Below are positions 2,387-8,557 of a stretch of DNA of 8,557 bases, piece by piece; within the stretch, counting starts at the first letter, position 1, and every line of letters starts with the position of its first letter. The translations under genes were made by a program, and so were the position numbers. The notes under the pieces were generated by a model, which saw nothing but the letters and a program-made list of their open reading frames with translations, did not search any database and had not been told where the DNA came from. Source of the stretch: a candidate division WOR-3 bacterium (GTDB taxonomy: Bacteria > SDB-A). Location of the stretch: contig JAFGON010000020.1 of the NCBI GenBank assembly GCA_016926475.1, positions 1-8,557 on the forward strand, read 5' to 3'.

Positions 2387-3526
2387 ATGTATAACAGAAT
2401 AATAAATTATCCTAAAAACAGCAGTTTCTTTATTTTTGGGCCACGAGGAACAGGAAAGACTACATGGGTTAAAAACGAATTCCCCGGAGCTTTATACCTG
2501 GACCTTCTTGAATCCGAAAAATATATAAACTTGTCCGCAAATCCACAAAGAATTGAACAATTTATACCTAAAATGTTTAGGGAATGGATAATTGTCGATG
2601 AGATCCAGAGAATACCCGAATTGCTCAATGAAGTTCACAGATTAATTGAAAATAGCGGATATAAATTCATTTTGACGGGATCGAGCCCTCGAAAACTTAG
2701 AAAGAAAGGTACGAATTTGTTGGCAGGCAGGGCAATTAAACTTAACATGCACCCTTTGAGTGCGGAAGAGTTGAAAGAAGATTTTAATATCGAAAAATCC
2801 TTAAAATACGGAAATCTTCCTTCTGTGTATAAAGGGGGAGAACCTGAGAAATACCTTCAAAGTTATGTTGGGACATACCTTGAAGAGGAGATTAAACAGG
2901 AAGGTTTGACGAGAAATATGAGAGCTTTCACCCGTTTTCTGGAAGCGGCGAGTTTTTCTCAGTGCTCCGTATTAAACATGTCTGAGGTTGCGAGAGAAAG
3001 CTCCGTCGAAAGAAAAGTTGTGGAAAACTATTTCAACATAATTGAGGATTTGCTTATATCTCAAAGAATACCTGTTTTTAAGAAAAGAGCAAAAAGACAA
3101 GTTTATAATCATCCGAAATTCTTCTTGTTTGATACCGGCGTATATCGTGCTGTGAGGCCATCGGGACCGCTTGACAGCCCTGAGGAAATTGAAGGATCTG
3201 CGCTCGAAACACTGTTATTTCAGGAATTGACGGCAGTAAATGAAAATCACGGATTGGGTTATGATTTGTATTTCTGGAACACTTCCAACAGACACGAAGT
3301 AGATTTTGTTTTATACGGTAAAAGGGGAATTAAAGCTTTTGAGATTAAAAGGACCAGAAGATTGACGCCTGATTGTATTAAAAACTTAAAAATATTTTTA
3401 AAGGATTATCCGGGATCAAAAGCATATTTAATCTATGGCGGTACCGAATATCTGCGGGAAGATAAAATTGAGATTTTACCCTTGGAAAAAACCTTCAGAA
3501 ACTTGTTGTCTATCCTCGAGAGTTGA
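2387..3526 (+). CDS. AAA_14/DUF4143 family ATP-binding protein
   Basis: The 379 residues have the full layout of the widespread AAA_14 plus DUF4143 proteins. The Walker A motif is at 18-25 (GPRGTGKT), Walker B at 68-72 (IIVDE), a sensor-1-like FILTGSS at 94-100 and LLAGRA at 111-116. The C-terminal domain has HEVDFVL (303-309) and AFEIK (317-321), an arrangement resembling the Asp...Glu-X-Lys core of PD-(D/E)XK nucleases; whether it cleaves DNA is unproven for this family. The start MYNRIINYP matches the usual N-terminus, so the ATG at 2387 is credible although GGAG lies only 2 nt before it. These proteins usually occur as lone genes, are often patchily distributed, and have no settled role. 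Not visibly in an operon. Its 3' end converges with the gene for the small membrane protein. Confidence 0.93.
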   Translation: MYNRIINYPKNSSFFIFGPRGTGKTTWVKNEFPGALYLDLLESEKYINLSANPQRIEQFIPKMFREWIIVDEIQRIPELLNEVHRLIENSGYKFILTGSSPRKLRKKGTNLLAGRAIKLNMHPLSAEELKEDFNIEKSLKYGNLPSVYKGGEPEKYLQSYVGTYLEEEIKQEGLTRNMRAFTRFLEAASFSQCSVLNMSEVARESSVERKVVENYFNIIEDLLISQRIPVFKKRAKRQVYNHPKFFLFDTGVYRAVRPSGPLDSPEEIEGSALETLLFQELTAVNENHGLGYDLYFWNTSNRHEVDFVLYGKRGIKAFEIKRTRRLTPDCIKNLKIFLKDYPGSKAYLIYGGTEYLREDKIEILPLEKTFRNLLSILES

Positions 3527-3598
3527 AGCTCTTTTTAGCTTATGCTTCAAAATCCATTCACCATAAAACGAGGGAGAATCTTTTGTCCTATCCTGTTT

Positions 3599-4042
3599 TT
3601 ATCTTTTCCTTCCAAGAGTTTCATTTATGGCTTTTTCGAGTTCTTGCGGTTCGTCGGTTCCTATTCGAAAAGTTTGTCCTGTGTTGATTTTTATCTCCAC
3701 CGCGTCGGTTCCGGATACGGAAAACAGGAGTCCCGAAGGTGTGTTCTGTATACCGAAACCGTAATACCATGGATTTTCTACAATCCTGCAGGACACTATG
3801 TCTTTGAGGGGGAATTTTTTTCTCACAACACCTAATCCGAACCATATCTTGACAAATTCGTCGTCGACGTACGTCGTCATTGATACAAAAAGACCGAGTA
3901 TGATGTTAAATAACATCAGTACGATGATTGAAAAGAGATTAAATCCGAATATATACATGTGGAGAGCGACAAGGATAATAGGCAATGACAGGGCTGCGAT
4001 TATCAAATATCCGATCTGAGTGTGCCTGTAATGTTCGTTCAT
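3599..4042 (-). CDS. Small membrane protein with PH-like C-terminal domain
   Basis: The 147-residue product has two adjacent hydrophobic segments at about residues 10-33 and 36-57, forming a membrane hairpin. A soluble domain of about 85 residues follows. Its pattern (YVDDEFVKIWFGLGVVRKKF, then KDIVSCRIVENP, YGFGIQ, SGLLFSVSG, AVEIKINTGQTFRIGTDEP and a final helix) matches small bacterial membrane proteins with a PH-like fold, whose roles are unknown. The domain would face the cytoplasm if both helices cross the membrane. The start ATG at 4042 has no clear ribosome binding site, but the length and topology look complete. It is transcribed alone and converges with the ATPase gene. I am confident that it is a gene and less so about the domain assignment. 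Confidence 0.78.
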   Translation of the reverse strand: MNEHYRHTQIGYLIIAALSLPIILVALHMYIFGFNLFSIIVLMLFNIILGLFVSMTTYVDDEFVKIWFGLGVVRKKFPLKDIVSCRIVENPWYYGFGIQNTPSGLLFSVSGTDAVEIKINTGQTFRIGTDEPQELEKAINETLGRKR

Positions 4043-4431
4043 AATTGTAATTTATCACAATCCGGTCTGATAGTTAATTGAGATGTTTTTTGTATTCAAT
4101 TTACTTTCTTTTTAAGTCTCTTTAATAATTTTCGTGAGGACCTGTCATTAGCAGTTACAGGACATCTTCTGACATTCAATAGGCCATAAGATATGATTTT
4201 TGTTCGACTTTAAATTTTTTTATAAACACCTTTCAGATCGCCGTTCTTTTTCTCGCTGATTGTTTTTATGACACCAAATCTTTAAAAATCCTGTCTAAAA
4301 TATGTTTATCAATTTTTTTGATTTGAATTAAGGATATAAATCTGAACAACATTTCAAAACTGCAAACAGTGCAATGATTTTAATTTGAAACAGTATTATC
4401 CAGATAAGATAATATCTTTGTAAGATAAAAG
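4043..4431. other. AT-rich intergenic stretch without a supported gene
   Basis: This 389-nt gap lies between the start of the membrane-protein gene and the end of the AraC-family gene. It is T-rich on the plus strand, with several runs of five to seven T. I see no reading frame with protein-like composition, no tRNA, and only short weak hairpins such as AAGAT-AAT-ATCTT at 4406-4418, just past the AraC stop codon. That hairpin lacks a following T-run on the minus strand and is not a convincing terminator. Confidence 0.6.
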
Positions 4432-5325
4432 TTAATTAGCCATATGCTGTCTGCGAAGAATTGTCGCGTCTTTTGCAGGCGTTACTCCAAACAAGCGTTT
4501 GTATTCCCTGTTAAACTGAGAAGAGCTTTCGTATCCCACCTGCATTGCGGCTATGTTGGCATTTAGCCCATCCCTGATCATAAGGGTTCGTGCTCCGTGC
4601 AGGCGGACATTTTTTATGTACTGCAGAGGAGATATATCCGTCACCGCCTTGAAGCTTTTGTGAAAAGTAGAACTGCTCATTCCTAACTCTTTTGCCAGTT
4701 TTTTAATATCAAAATCATTGCTGTACGACTCATGGATTTTCTGCAGTACCTTTGCTATTTGAAAAAACCGCCTGTTGCGGTGAGCAATGGCCTGAAGAAT
4801 CTCTCCTTTTTCGCCCTGCAGCACCCGATAGATTATTTCTCTTTTAATCATCGGCGCCAGCGTTTTTCTGTCCAGAGGATCAGCGATTGCCTGCAAAAGT
4901 CTTATGGTAGCGTCAAAAAGGGCCTCACTCATTGGAGCGCTGTATATGCCCTTTGGCAGAGATCGGGTTTCTTTCTGGATATCCTCCATATCCAACAAGA
5001 TCTCTCCGACTTCTATCGGGTCAATTATAATTGTCAGACCCAGTATCGGCTTGCCCGGCTCGGTTTTTCCCTGGCATTCAGCCGGCAGTGGAACAGGAAG
5101 AACAAGATAATGAGAAGAGTCATAAGTATAAACGTCATTTCCAAGGTAGACCTGTTTTACTCCCTGGCCCAATATGATTATCTCGGAATTATAAGCGTAA
5201 GGTGTTCGGGGAAAAGAATGTTCAATTCTAAATAGTTGGATCCCCTTTATTGAAGTAGCGAGAACAGTTTCGTCAGGCATAATGCCTGTAAAAAGTTCAA
5301 TTAATTTTTTCTGATTTTCATTCAT
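4432..5325 (-). CDS. AraC-family regulator (AraC_N plus HTH_18, YqhC-like)
   Basis: The 297-residue protein has an N-terminal sensory domain (about 20-175) of the AraC_N type and a C-terminal pair of helix-turn-helix motifs. The first HTH is at 206-226 (IKKLAKELGMSSSTFHKSFK) and the second near 253-276, ending in the AraC signature SSSQFNREYKRLFGVTP (267-283). E. coli YqhC has this architecture; it responds to reactive aldehydes and activates yqhD-dkgA, which are divergent from it. Here too the regulator is divergent from an operon led by a DkgA-like aldo-keto reductase, with 174 nt between the two starts. It probably controls that operon. The start ATG at 5325 has a poor ribosome binding site, but no better start is seen. 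The inducer cannot be read from the sequence. Confidence 0.95.
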   Translation of the reverse strand: MNENQKKLIELFTGIMPDETVLATSIKGIQLFRIEHSFPRTPYAYNSEIIILGQGVKQVYLGNDVYTYDSSHYLVLPVPLPAECQGKTEPGKPILGLTIIIDPIEVGEILLDMEDIQKETRSLPKGIYSAPMSEALFDATIRLLQAIADPLDRKTLAPMIKREIIYRVLQGEKGEILQAIAHRNRRFFQIAKVLQKIHESYSNDFDIKKLAKELGMSSSTFHKSFKAVTDISPLQYIKNVRLHGARTLMIRDGLNANIAAMQVGYESSSQFNREYKRLFGVTPAKDATILRRQHMAN

Positions 5326-5362
5326 CGTTTGTTGCCAATTATGCTGAATTTAACAGTAGTGT

Positions 5363-5389
5363 ATTATAAAAACCCCAATATTACAACAA
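5363..5389 (-). promoter_or_regulatory. Candidate promoter of the AraC-family gene
   Basis: On the minus strand a perfect TATAAT occupies 5368-5363. TTGTTG at 5389-5384 is a possible -35 box with a short 15-nt spacer. Transcription would start near 5356, giving a leader of about 30 nt. The -10 is convincing and the -35 is weak, as expected for a regulated or self-controlled regulator gene. Confidence 0.4.
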
Positions 5390-5414
5390 TTTATTGGAAA
5401 ATATACAGGATTAG

Positions 5415-5441
5415 GCAATAATTAACAAGTTCAGGTATTGC
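5415..5441. promoter_or_regulatory. Spaced inverted repeat in the AraC/reductase divergent region
   Basis: GCAATA (5415-5420) and TATTGC (5436-5441) are perfect inverted copies with 15 nt between them, so arm centres are about 21 bp, or two helical turns, apart. The position suits a site for the divergent AraC-family regulator. A possible operon promoter, TTGGAA (5394-5399) with AATAAT (5417-5422) at a 17-nt spacing, would overlap its left arm. Support is positional only. Confidence 0.3.
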
Positions 5442-5444
5442 GAA

Positions 5445-5472
5445 GGATTAATTTATCATTTAAATTAAATCC
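5445..5472. repeat. Near-perfect palindrome in the leader of the reductase operon
   Basis: GGATTAATTTA (5445-5455) is the inverted match of TAAATTAAATCC (5461-5472), differing by one extra base, around the 5-nt loop TCATT. It ends 14 nt before the ribosome binding site at 5487-5494. It could be an operator or a leader stem-loop; only the GGATT/AATCC ends are not pure A/T. Confidence 0.35.
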
Positions 5473-5499
5473 ATCATCGAACAACGTAGGAGGTCTTCA

Positions 5500-6414
5500 A
5501 TGATGGAAATATCAAAATCGACACGCAACAGAATGGGAATGCCTGTAGCGGGATTTGGTACCTATCAGCTTTCAGTTGACGGGGCAGAATTCTGTGTAAA
5601 AGAGGCGCTTAAAGCCGGATTCAGACATATTGATTCGGCCGAGGGCTACAATAATGAAGAGGGCACCGGTAAAGGGATAAAAGCGGCCGGTGTTTCAAGG
5701 GGCGACATTTTTGTAACCACCAAACTTTTTCCCGGATACAAACAGTGGGGTGCGCCTGAAAAGACATATAAACAGACCATTGAAACGCTGAAAAATCAGC
5801 TCAAACAGCTCCGGCTCGATTATGTTGATCTATACCTTATACATGCTCCGCTATCGGAACTCAGGCTGGAACAGTGGAACGCTTTAGCTGAGCTGAAAAA
5901 ATCAGGTCTTACCAGGCATATCGGAGTGTCAAACTACAATGAAGAGAGAATAAAAGAGATTCTGGATGCAGGCCTTTCCAAACCCGAAGCCAACCAGGTT
6001 GAATTTCATCCGCTTTGCGCCAGGATTGATTTGACAATATACATGAAGAAGAATTCAATCGAGCCGATTGCATATAGCTCGCTTGCTCCCCTTTCAACCT
6101 GGCGGGCCGAAGAAGGACAGGGCGGGGAAGTTCTCGCTCAGATAAAAGAAGAATGCCAGTCGGTCGCTAAAGAAATCGCAGCAAAACTCAAGGTATCGGA
6201 AGCCAAATTGTTATTGAGGTGGGGATTGCAGCACGGATACTGTATATTGACGAGAAGCAGTAAGCCAGAGCGAATCCGTGAAAATTTGAATTTATTTGAT
6301 TTCCAGATTCCTGACAGCGACATGGAGCGTTTGAATGGTCTGGATCGGAATCAGGCGTTCGCCTGGGCGGCCAATGGTCTTGATCCGATGGAAGCCGCTC
6401 CTCCCCTCAAATGA
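5500..6414 (+). CDS. Aldo-keto reductase, 2,5-diketogluconate reductase/DkgA type
   Basis: This 304-residue enzyme has the (alpha/beta)8 aldo-keto reductase pattern and would reduce aldehydes or ketones with NADPH in the cytoplasm. The catalytic tetrad is complete: Asp45 and Tyr50 in FRHIDSAEGYNNE, Lys75 in VTTKLF and His115 in LIHAP. IGVSNYN and NQVEFHP are typical AKR blocks. The cofactor loop CILTRSSKPERIREN (248-262) corresponds to the usual IPKSS...RIxEN, with Arg252 in place of the common Lys. It starts at ATG 5500 behind an excellent TAGGAGGT (5487-5494); a second ATG follows at 5503. It leads a three-gene operon, with the next gene 25 nt downstream, and is divergent from the YqhC-like regulator. 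Detoxification of reactive aldehydes such as methylglyoxal is plausible. The true substrate is unknown. Confidence 0.95.
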   Translation: MMEISKSTRNRMGMPVAGFGTYQLSVDGAEFCVKEALKAGFRHIDSAEGYNNEEGTGKGIKAAGVSRGDIFVTTKLFPGYKQWGAPEKTYKQTIETLKNQLKQLRLDYVDLYLIHAPLSELRLEQWNALAELKKSGLTRHIGVSNYNEERIKEILDAGLSKPEANQVEFHPLCARIDLTIYMKKNSIEPIAYSSLAPLSTWRAEEGQGGEVLAQIKEECQSVAKEIAAKLKVSEAKLLLRWGLQHGYCILTRSSKPERIRENLNLFDFQIPDSDMERLNGLDRNQAFAWAANGLDPMEAAPPLK

Positions 6415-7735: not shown

Positions 7736-7779
7736 TGAAAAACTATTCAAGTTTTGAGCTTCTCTAAACGTAAAGACAG

Positions 7780-7814
7780 ATACCTTTTAAAATTTATATA
7801 TCGAAGGTATTTTT
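7780..7814 (+). terminator. Candidate Rho-independent terminator of the reductase operon
   Basis: ATACCTT (7780-7786) pairs with AAGGTAT (7804-7810), and the stem runs into a T-run (7810-7814). It lies 45 nt after the last reductase stop codon. The loop of 17 nt is long and the stem is not GC-rich, so it is only a moderate terminator. The T-run follows the stem only in the plus-strand direction, which fits the operon and not the convergent zinc-ribbon gene. Confidence 0.5.
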
Positions 7815-7850
7815 CAGGTCTTGAAGCCAACGGTGCAGATTTGTGACTTT

Positions 7851-8072
7851 TTATCGTTTGTATGATTTTCTCACAGCGACCTTATTACATTTAGTACATC
7901 TGGCAGCTTTTATTGGATTACCTTTTGCTTTATATCTTATGCCGCCTGTATCCCAAATACTAAACTCATTACCACAGTCACATTTAAAATACCATTCACT
8001 GGATTCCGATTTTATTTTTGAAAAAGTTTTTGATGATACAAATAACTTAATCATTTTTTGATATAAGCTCAT
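7851..8072 (-). CDS. Small zinc-ribbon protein
   Basis: The ATG at 8072 gives 73 residues and has a good ribosome binding site (AAGGAAGGG, 8085-8077). The same frame stays open further upstream, but that extension translates the structured intergenic element and is rejected. Two cysteine pairs, Cys31/Cys33 (KCDCGNEF) and Cys59/Cys62 (RCTKCNK), enclose WDTGGIRYKAKGNP. The order of Cys pair, GGIRYKA block and Cys pair recurs in short uncharacterised bacterial proteins. The first pair is CxC rather than the usual CxxC, which is worth noting. The N-terminus (MSLYQKMIKLFVSSKTF) is amphipathic and the C-terminus is basic, so binding of nucleic acid or protein is possible. It follows the alpha/beta hydrolase gene on the same strand, separated by 173 nt. 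Function unknown. Confidence 0.75.
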   Translation of the reverse strand: MSLYQKMIKLFVSSKTFSKIKSESSEWYFKCDCGNEFSIWDTGGIRYKAKGNPIKAARCTKCNKVAVRKSYKR

Positions 8073-8105: not shown

Positions 8106-8235
8106 GTCTGACGTGTGGCGGTATGAATTCGATGGAGAGCACGAGCTACGTTCGTATCCAACGTGACTGATGCTGAGACGAGGCAGGGTGCTGAACAAAC
8201 TGCTGTCCCTGCAATTTTTATTTTGCGTGTTAGTG
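8106..8235. repeat. Long imperfect palindrome, possible attC-like site or structured RNA
   Basis: The two ends of this GC-richer element pair over about 33 positions per arm. On the plus strand, CTGACGTGT (8108-8116) pairs with 8225-8233 through five Watson-Crick and four G-T pairs. After a one-base offset, 8126-8141 pairs with 8201-8216 at 12 of 16 positions. The top of the fold holds a small hairpin (8141-8155). GCAGGG (8183-8188) and CCCTGC (8207-8212) offer a competing fold. The outer ends, GTCTGAC (8106-8112) and GTTAGTG (8229-8235), each resemble an integron core site imperfectly. It begins 10 nt after the hydrolase stop codon and ends 33 nt before the zinc-ribbon start. Confidence 0.45.
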
Positions 8236-8245
8236 CCGGTATTTT

Positions 8246-8557
8246 TTATTTGCTTTCTATCCATTCATACATTGTTTTGAGAGCCAATTCAAAATTACCT
8301 GTCTGGCAATGATTCTCTGCATGTTCAACTTCTGTAAATATTCTTCCAGTAACGGATTTTGCATTAACCAAAGCTTTTAACTGCATTTCGTGCATTTTAA
8401 AGGGAATCAAATGGTCGTTCCTGCCGGTTAAAATCAAAACGTCTTGCCTCACAAGTTCTGAATGGATATTTTTTTCGTTCAACTGCAAGTATAAATCCAA
8501 AGCTTCTATAGGTTTGCTTTTCCTGGTTATATACTTTAAATGGTCAACAACCCATGA
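8246..8557 (-). CDS. Alpha/beta hydrolase, C-terminal part, cut by window edge
   Basis: The frame is open from the right edge to the TAA at 8248-8246, giving 103 visible residues. The TTG at 8500 is internal: the 19 codons before it (SWVVDHLKYITRKSKPIEA) continue the protein without a stop, so the true start lies outside the window. VLILTGRNDHLIPFKM contains the Asp of the alpha/beta-hydrolase triad, in the usual strand followed by an HxIP turn. FTEVEHAENHCQTGN holds the likely catalytic His, and LALKTMYEWIESK is the last helix. The nucleophilic Ser is in the missing part. These enzymes hydrolyse esters, amides or related bonds; the substrate is not predictable. It is on the same strand as the zinc-ribbon gene, but the palindromic element between them argues against simple co-translation. 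Confidence 0.85.
   Translation of the reverse strand, partial: SWVVDHLKYITRKSKPIEALDLYLQLNEKNIHSELVRQDVLILTGRNDHLIPFKMHEMQLKALVNAKSVTGRIFTEVEHAENHCQTGNFELALKTMYEWIESK

Follow-up and report, generated by a model that had tools for sequence, protein, structure and literature searches.

The 133-nt element on the minus strand at positions 8106–8238 of the DNA stretch analysed here (the window, an entire 8557-bp contig, C20, of a 2.15-Mb draft genome of candidate division WOR-3) is very probably the attC-type tail of a hydrolase gene cassette, derived from a Bacteroidota-type (including Ignavibacteria) integron lineage and horizontally acquired by WOR-3. This reading is directly supported by homology of the site, covariation and the cassette-boundary signature of its family, and the layout of arrays and attI shown in relatives; the source lineage of the window cassette is best read as one of integrons lacking the I2 helix. 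More broadly, the observations likely point to an unrecognised, widespread integron class of Bacteroidota (including Ignavibacteria), with attC sites of ~133 or ~190 nt, an I2-less integrase and arrays of at least 64 cassettes, which reaches WOR-3 and would either retain an ancestral mechanism that predates I2 or have found a different solution for recombining folded single-stranded sites. Weighing against the interpretation of the window are the score of its site, just 26 bits, the changed R' core, and the absence of a site belonging to the neighbouring zinc-ribbon gene. The original prediction of an attC site is borne out in kind, the element belonging to a family with the cassette-boundary signature, but not for a canonical IntI-type site; the canonical profile failed, and R' is degenerate.

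The element and its neighbouring genes

Table 1. Features of the window around the probable attC-type site
Feature	Position	Strand	Basis or remark
Alpha/beta-hydrolase gene, 3' part, cassette cargo	8246..8557	-	Cut by contig end; homology
Probable attC-type recombination site (degenerate), 133 nt	8106..8238	-	Bacteroidota 133-nt family; covariance model
R'' core GGCACTAAC, AAC conserved	8229..8237	-	Directly after hydrolase stop; sequence
Long stem, 5' arm, partly decayed	8209..8226	-	Family alignments
Long stem, 3' arm CCATCGAATTCATACCGCC (relatives: CCAACGATTTCATACCGCC)	8117..8137	-	Family alignments
R' core GTCAGAC	8106..8112	-	Sequence and family alignments
Small zinc-ribbon protein gene, possible next cassette	7851..8072	-	3' of site

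The element lies where it had been described and matches, over its full length (model positions 1–133), covariance model R1, which was built from 20 members from the Bacteroidota phylum with the window left out (25.9 bits, E 6.6e-5). Model R2, built from 46 sites, gave nearly the same result (26.0 bits, E 8.7e-5), and no unrelated match in ~0.9 Mb of other sequence scored above 20.7 bits (E 0.17). The E-values of the models are rough and the WOR-3 assembly is a draft; if the E-values are off by no more than two orders of magnitude, a chance feature is refuted. The originally noted gene–element–gene order on the minus strand was confirmed, with the site starting 7 nt past the stop codon of the hydrolase gene, on the same strand, and its intact R'' motif, CACTAAC, 10 nt past it. 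The end sequence originally noted corresponds, on the minus strand, to the R' end, in which the family consensus GTTxxxx is replaced by GTC, the T beside the cut having changed to C. The element forms a G+C island (50% vs 30–35% in the flanking genes). Of its 17 arm pairs, 10 remain Watson-Crick and 5 are lost, with the other 2 reading A.C on the minus strand, hence G.T on the plus strand; the fold of the bottom strand is the more stable one (-12.8 vs -10.4 kcal/mol for the top strand). Inactivity of the window copy is probable, given that R' reads GTC, that ~40% of the arm pairs are non-Watson-Crick, and that the genome yielded no integrase of the array type. GTTGGAT near 8152, considered as an inner R' candidate, was set aside because the family alignment places R' at 8106, and a 15-nt match between the element and the N-terminus of the hydrolase, GTTGGATACGAACG, was taken as chance.

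The end-to-end dyad symmetry on which the prediction had partly rested does not exceed chance. The RNA fold of the element was no better than that of shuffled sequences on the plus strand (z 0.2 to 0.5) and mildly better on the minus strand (z -1.3 to -2), and the score of the single wobble hairpin was equalled by 4 of 60 shuffles. BLAST searches for further copies in the same genome, 98 relatives, plasmids and phages returned nothing beyond chance, and pattern scans of viral contigs produced nothing useful, the one match being a tail-fibre-like gene. Judged by its own letters, the palindrome could be dismissed, and the pairing in the window is recognisable only via homology.

A MITE-like insertion, proposed as an alternative at the outset, or a palindrome that arose by chance in a G+C-rich remnant would be in keeping with a fold that, in isolation, does not exceed chance, and with a second copy that BLAST did not find. 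We nevertheless give this explanation hardly any credence: the element matches the model over its full length and is collinearly homologous to sites in relatives, the arrays carry gene cargo between sites, BLAST found a single copy in the genome rather than the several dispersed, near-identical copies of a MITE, and the model did detect a second one. That second family site, in contig C70 of the same genome (G000:C70, 180–312), scores 70–82 bits, better than the window copy, is diverged from it (65% identical) and is cassette-linked, with a near-match to a cassette boundary (8/9) located 84 nt upstream of its methyltransferase gene. The contig carries, in order, the methyltransferase-like gene, the site and a hydrolase-like ORF running off the contig end (L170, 1–1137). 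The search of the genome for further copies, suggested originally, thus succeeded with the model; no other sites were found in the ~1.07 Mb of the WOR-3 genome sampled as stretches. The original prediction was to be abandoned if there were no copies, no model hit and no conserved pairing; with the C70 site in the same genome and the strongly covarying pairing of relatives described below, this condition does not hold.

The proposal that the hydrolase gene is a former cassette gained support from its relationships. The gene is 92% identical at the amino acid level (93% in nucleotides) to its homologue in an Ignavibacteria MAG (L038) and 80–82% identical to copies from Chlorobiaceae and Acidobacteria, but only 68% identical to that of a candidate division WOR-3 MAG of the same genus (G002). 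The DNA match between the window and L038 ends at 8242, 4 nt past the hydrolase stop codon. Composition of the contig is host-like, and the cassette parts are AT-rich (GC 0.33–0.35 vs 0.42). The hydrolase is therefore supported as a gene that behaves as a mobile cassette gene. The contig ends inside it, and the 5' boundary of the cassette, expected to be GTTAGTGCC-like and to lie upstream of the hydrolase gene, falls beyond the contig end. For the zinc-ribbon gene, a cassette origin is possible; as had been noted, no second site follows it, the 3' flank (7736–7850) containing no model match beyond chance. A candidate truncated site at 7825–7859 was rejected (5.8 bits, not significant), and a homologue of the gene in G003 occurs without any such site.

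Members of the hydrolase family were also seen in other settings. In a Chlorobiaceae MAG (L037, 2755–4488), the hydrolase cassette adjoins a truncated redoxin gene, and immediately upstream of the cassette lies a large palindrome whose end reads GTTACCGCC; this arrangement looks like insertion at a secondary site. The WOR-3 genome itself contains a decayed second hydrolase of the same family, with fused N- and C-terminal pieces (L026, 1435–1632; G000:C40, about 56568–56735). In a Methanosarcinales MAG (L044, 2874–2959), a weak site-like match of 20.7 bits lies upstream of a hydrolase gene.

The site family, its covariation and its arrays

The stretch 3' of the hydrolase gene in L038 is collinear with the window element (score 17 vs 10.0 +/- 1.5, reached by 0 of 300 shuffles), and searching 395 genomes from its phylum with the L038 element yielded matches in 31; no more than two candidates were scored per genome, which makes the copy numbers minimum estimates. 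An alignment of twenty oriented members spans ~133 nt and has a common layout, namely, xxxxAAC, an arm, a conserved core, a second arm and CCGTTxxxx, and AAC occupies the R'' position in 19 of them. Conserved pairing among homologues, which the original prediction had named as a check, is evident from strong covariation: both sides have changed in 11 of 21 arm pairs, and the arms contain 62 double-change cells, vs 22 in shuffles and 2–10 when the pairing is slid. The bottom strand folds more stably in 17 of the 20 members. BLAST, which misses diverged sites, detected no further copies of the L037, L038 and L092 elements in the genomes that carry them. The family also includes a second size class, ~190 nt long, represented by L101 (1515–1708) and by the sites of this length in L238; in a ~190-nt copy from Gaoshiqia, the bottom-strand fold is strongly stable (z -4.2).

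Conservation of the central core and the stem, together with the location of the sites, mostly directly 3' of stop codons, is what a structured RNA, either a 3' UTR element or a one-strand sRNA conserved downstream of genes, would display. However, among the 340 arm pairing cells, 309 are Watson-Crick, 3 are A.C and a single one is G.U, and such strict Watson-Crick pairing fits DNA hairpins, not RNA. The element has no Rfam match either, and an RNA cannot account for the rule described below, which ties the R'' of a site to the R' of the site before it, with a gene in between. We thus consider a structured RNA very unlikely, including the version originally suggested, an RNA made from the plus strand.

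Model searches of 20-kb neighbourhoods revealed arrays of sites on the same strand in relatives of the window element. Integron cassettes with a cut at G|TT would require each R'' (site k) to be complementary to the R' of the preceding site (k-1), but not to that of its own site. Across 24 pairs, this complementarity averaged 4.4 of 6 positions vs 2.0 for the site's own R' (permutation p <1e-4). The clearest case comes from a named isolate: in plasmid pPP2 of Persicobacter psychrovividus, we found 64 sites within 50 kb, one strand throughout (L238, NZ_AP025294.1, 354700–404592), with perfect complementarity in 54 of 63 neighbouring pairs, compared to 4 of 63 for a site's own R'. Most pPP2 cassette genes are hypothetical, and several are annotated as DUF4272, DUF4279, DUF6678 or suppressor-of-fused, families that we take to be polymorphic-toxin immunity proteins.

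The R'' of the first site predicts a 9-mer at the head of the array, and in all seven loci in which R'' is usable and a tyrosine recombinase is encoded upstream on the same strand, this 9-mer is found 74–101 nt past the stop codon of the recombinase gene, compared to 0 of 42 in a cross-locus control. This is the attI position. Outside these seven loci, the recombinase is on the opposite strand in L139 and is a fragment in L144. At the head of the pPP2 array, a recombinase 50% identical to that of L146 spans the record start, and this integrase gene is absent from the gene table. Taken together, these sequence patterns support the conclusion that the family sites carry the defining cassette-boundary signature of integrons.

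Array integrases and the I2 helix

The six complete array recombinases have their best match to NF040815 (XerA type), at 217–230 bits (cut-off 220), whereas against the IntI model TIGR02249 they score 196–216 bits, under the cut-off of 265 (508 for the IntI1 control), and the match consists of two pieces flanking a missing segment. In alignments, the IntI1 segment ~190–225 is absent from all six, and this segment holds the I2 helix. The C-terminal SPxDxL of IntI1 is common to five of the six, with PxDxF in the sixth. The I2 helix of IntI1 has been described as necessary for cassette capture and as absent from other proteins (Escudero et al. 2020, PMC7790495). The intI gene that the original prediction proposed to look for was not detected, with no TIGR02249 match above the cut-off in the WOR-3 genome; an integrase of the array type was not found there either, only two Xer-like recombinases.

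The element could, alternatively, be a merely degenerate canonical attC site of an ordinary, I2-containing IntI. Members of the same hydrolase family sit between canonical attC sites in HGW-Deltaproteobacteria-12 (L045), complete integrons have been reported in Chlorobi and Ignavibacteriae (PMC9024848), and a true IntI located elsewhere could act in trans. However, on a profile of 12 real attC sites, the window element scored 10–13, under the maxima of shuffled windows (28–38; controls 21–68), and therefore is not a canonical attC site; the same profile did find a further, unseen attC site in L045. Furthermore, the family integrases at array heads lack the IntI domain, and no IntI was found in the WOR-3 genome. 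All told, we regard the canonical alternative as unlikely. In L045 itself, a deltaproteobacterial MAG, the canonical cassette array (2909–6236) combines toxin-antitoxin-like genes with the hydrolase.

Returning to the attC-type tail of a cassette from an I2-less lineage, a mechanism can be outlined largely from the relatives. A family site would be extruded as a folded single strand, with the bottom strand, which corresponds to the plus strand in the window, probably being the one that recombines. The tyrosine recombinase encoded at the array head would cut at G|TT, and the cassette would be moved into attI, ~75–100 nt past the recombinase gene, by an integrase that presumably recombines without an I2 helix.

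No published description of a class of I2-less integrons with ~133-nt sites was found in the open-access literature. Published attC models cover 11 taxa, Bacteroidota not among them (PMC8352920), and the IntI definition of IntegronFinder, the standard search tool, demands the IntI-specific domain (PMC9668308), so that arrays with an I2-less integrase, attI and attC sites would be missed by design. Work on IntI1 regards the I2 helix as the innovation behind the emergence of integrons (PMC7790495). If our interpretation is correct, the I2-less arrays would allow the origin of integrons from Xer-like recombinases to be tested directly in Persicobacter psychrovividus, which is in culture, and the window demonstrates that cassettes of this kind pass between phyla. 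The observations bear on how integrons work and how they arose; for specialists, the strongest claim is the one about the site family.

Comparison with known integrons and Xer systems

The family sites resemble the attC sites of class 1, chromosomal and archaeal integrons in many respects. They are imperfect palindromes behind a gene, with AAC and GTT cores, a G|TT boundary and an R'' complementary to the 5' end of the cassette itself; the bottom strand is the more stable one, and the sites form same-strand arrays beside an integrase gene and attI. They differ from those sites in their uniform length of ~133 nt (~190 nt in the second class), in the long conserved central core, and in R boxes that are complementary over up to 9 nt and do not conform to RYYYAAC/GTTRRRY, and they are not captured by the canonical attC profile. 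In the L045 array, too, a cassette carries a member of the window's hydrolase family, but the attC sites there are short and canonical (profile score 44–52), unlike the window's site.

Like IntI (TIGR02249, NF011946), the array recombinases are tyrosine recombinases encoded at the array head, with an IntI-like core and the SPxDxL C-terminus. Unlike IntI, they lack the I2 domain and stay below the TIGR02249 cut-off, and their genes are on the cassette strand, with attI past the 3' end. Xer proteins (XerC, XerD and XerA_Arch, NF040815) lack I2 as the array integrases do, and the title of NF040815, the best curated match of the array integrases, reads 'site-specific tyrosine recombinase/integron integrase'. 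Xer proteins act at dif sites, and none is known to be encoded at the head of a cassette array with an attI.
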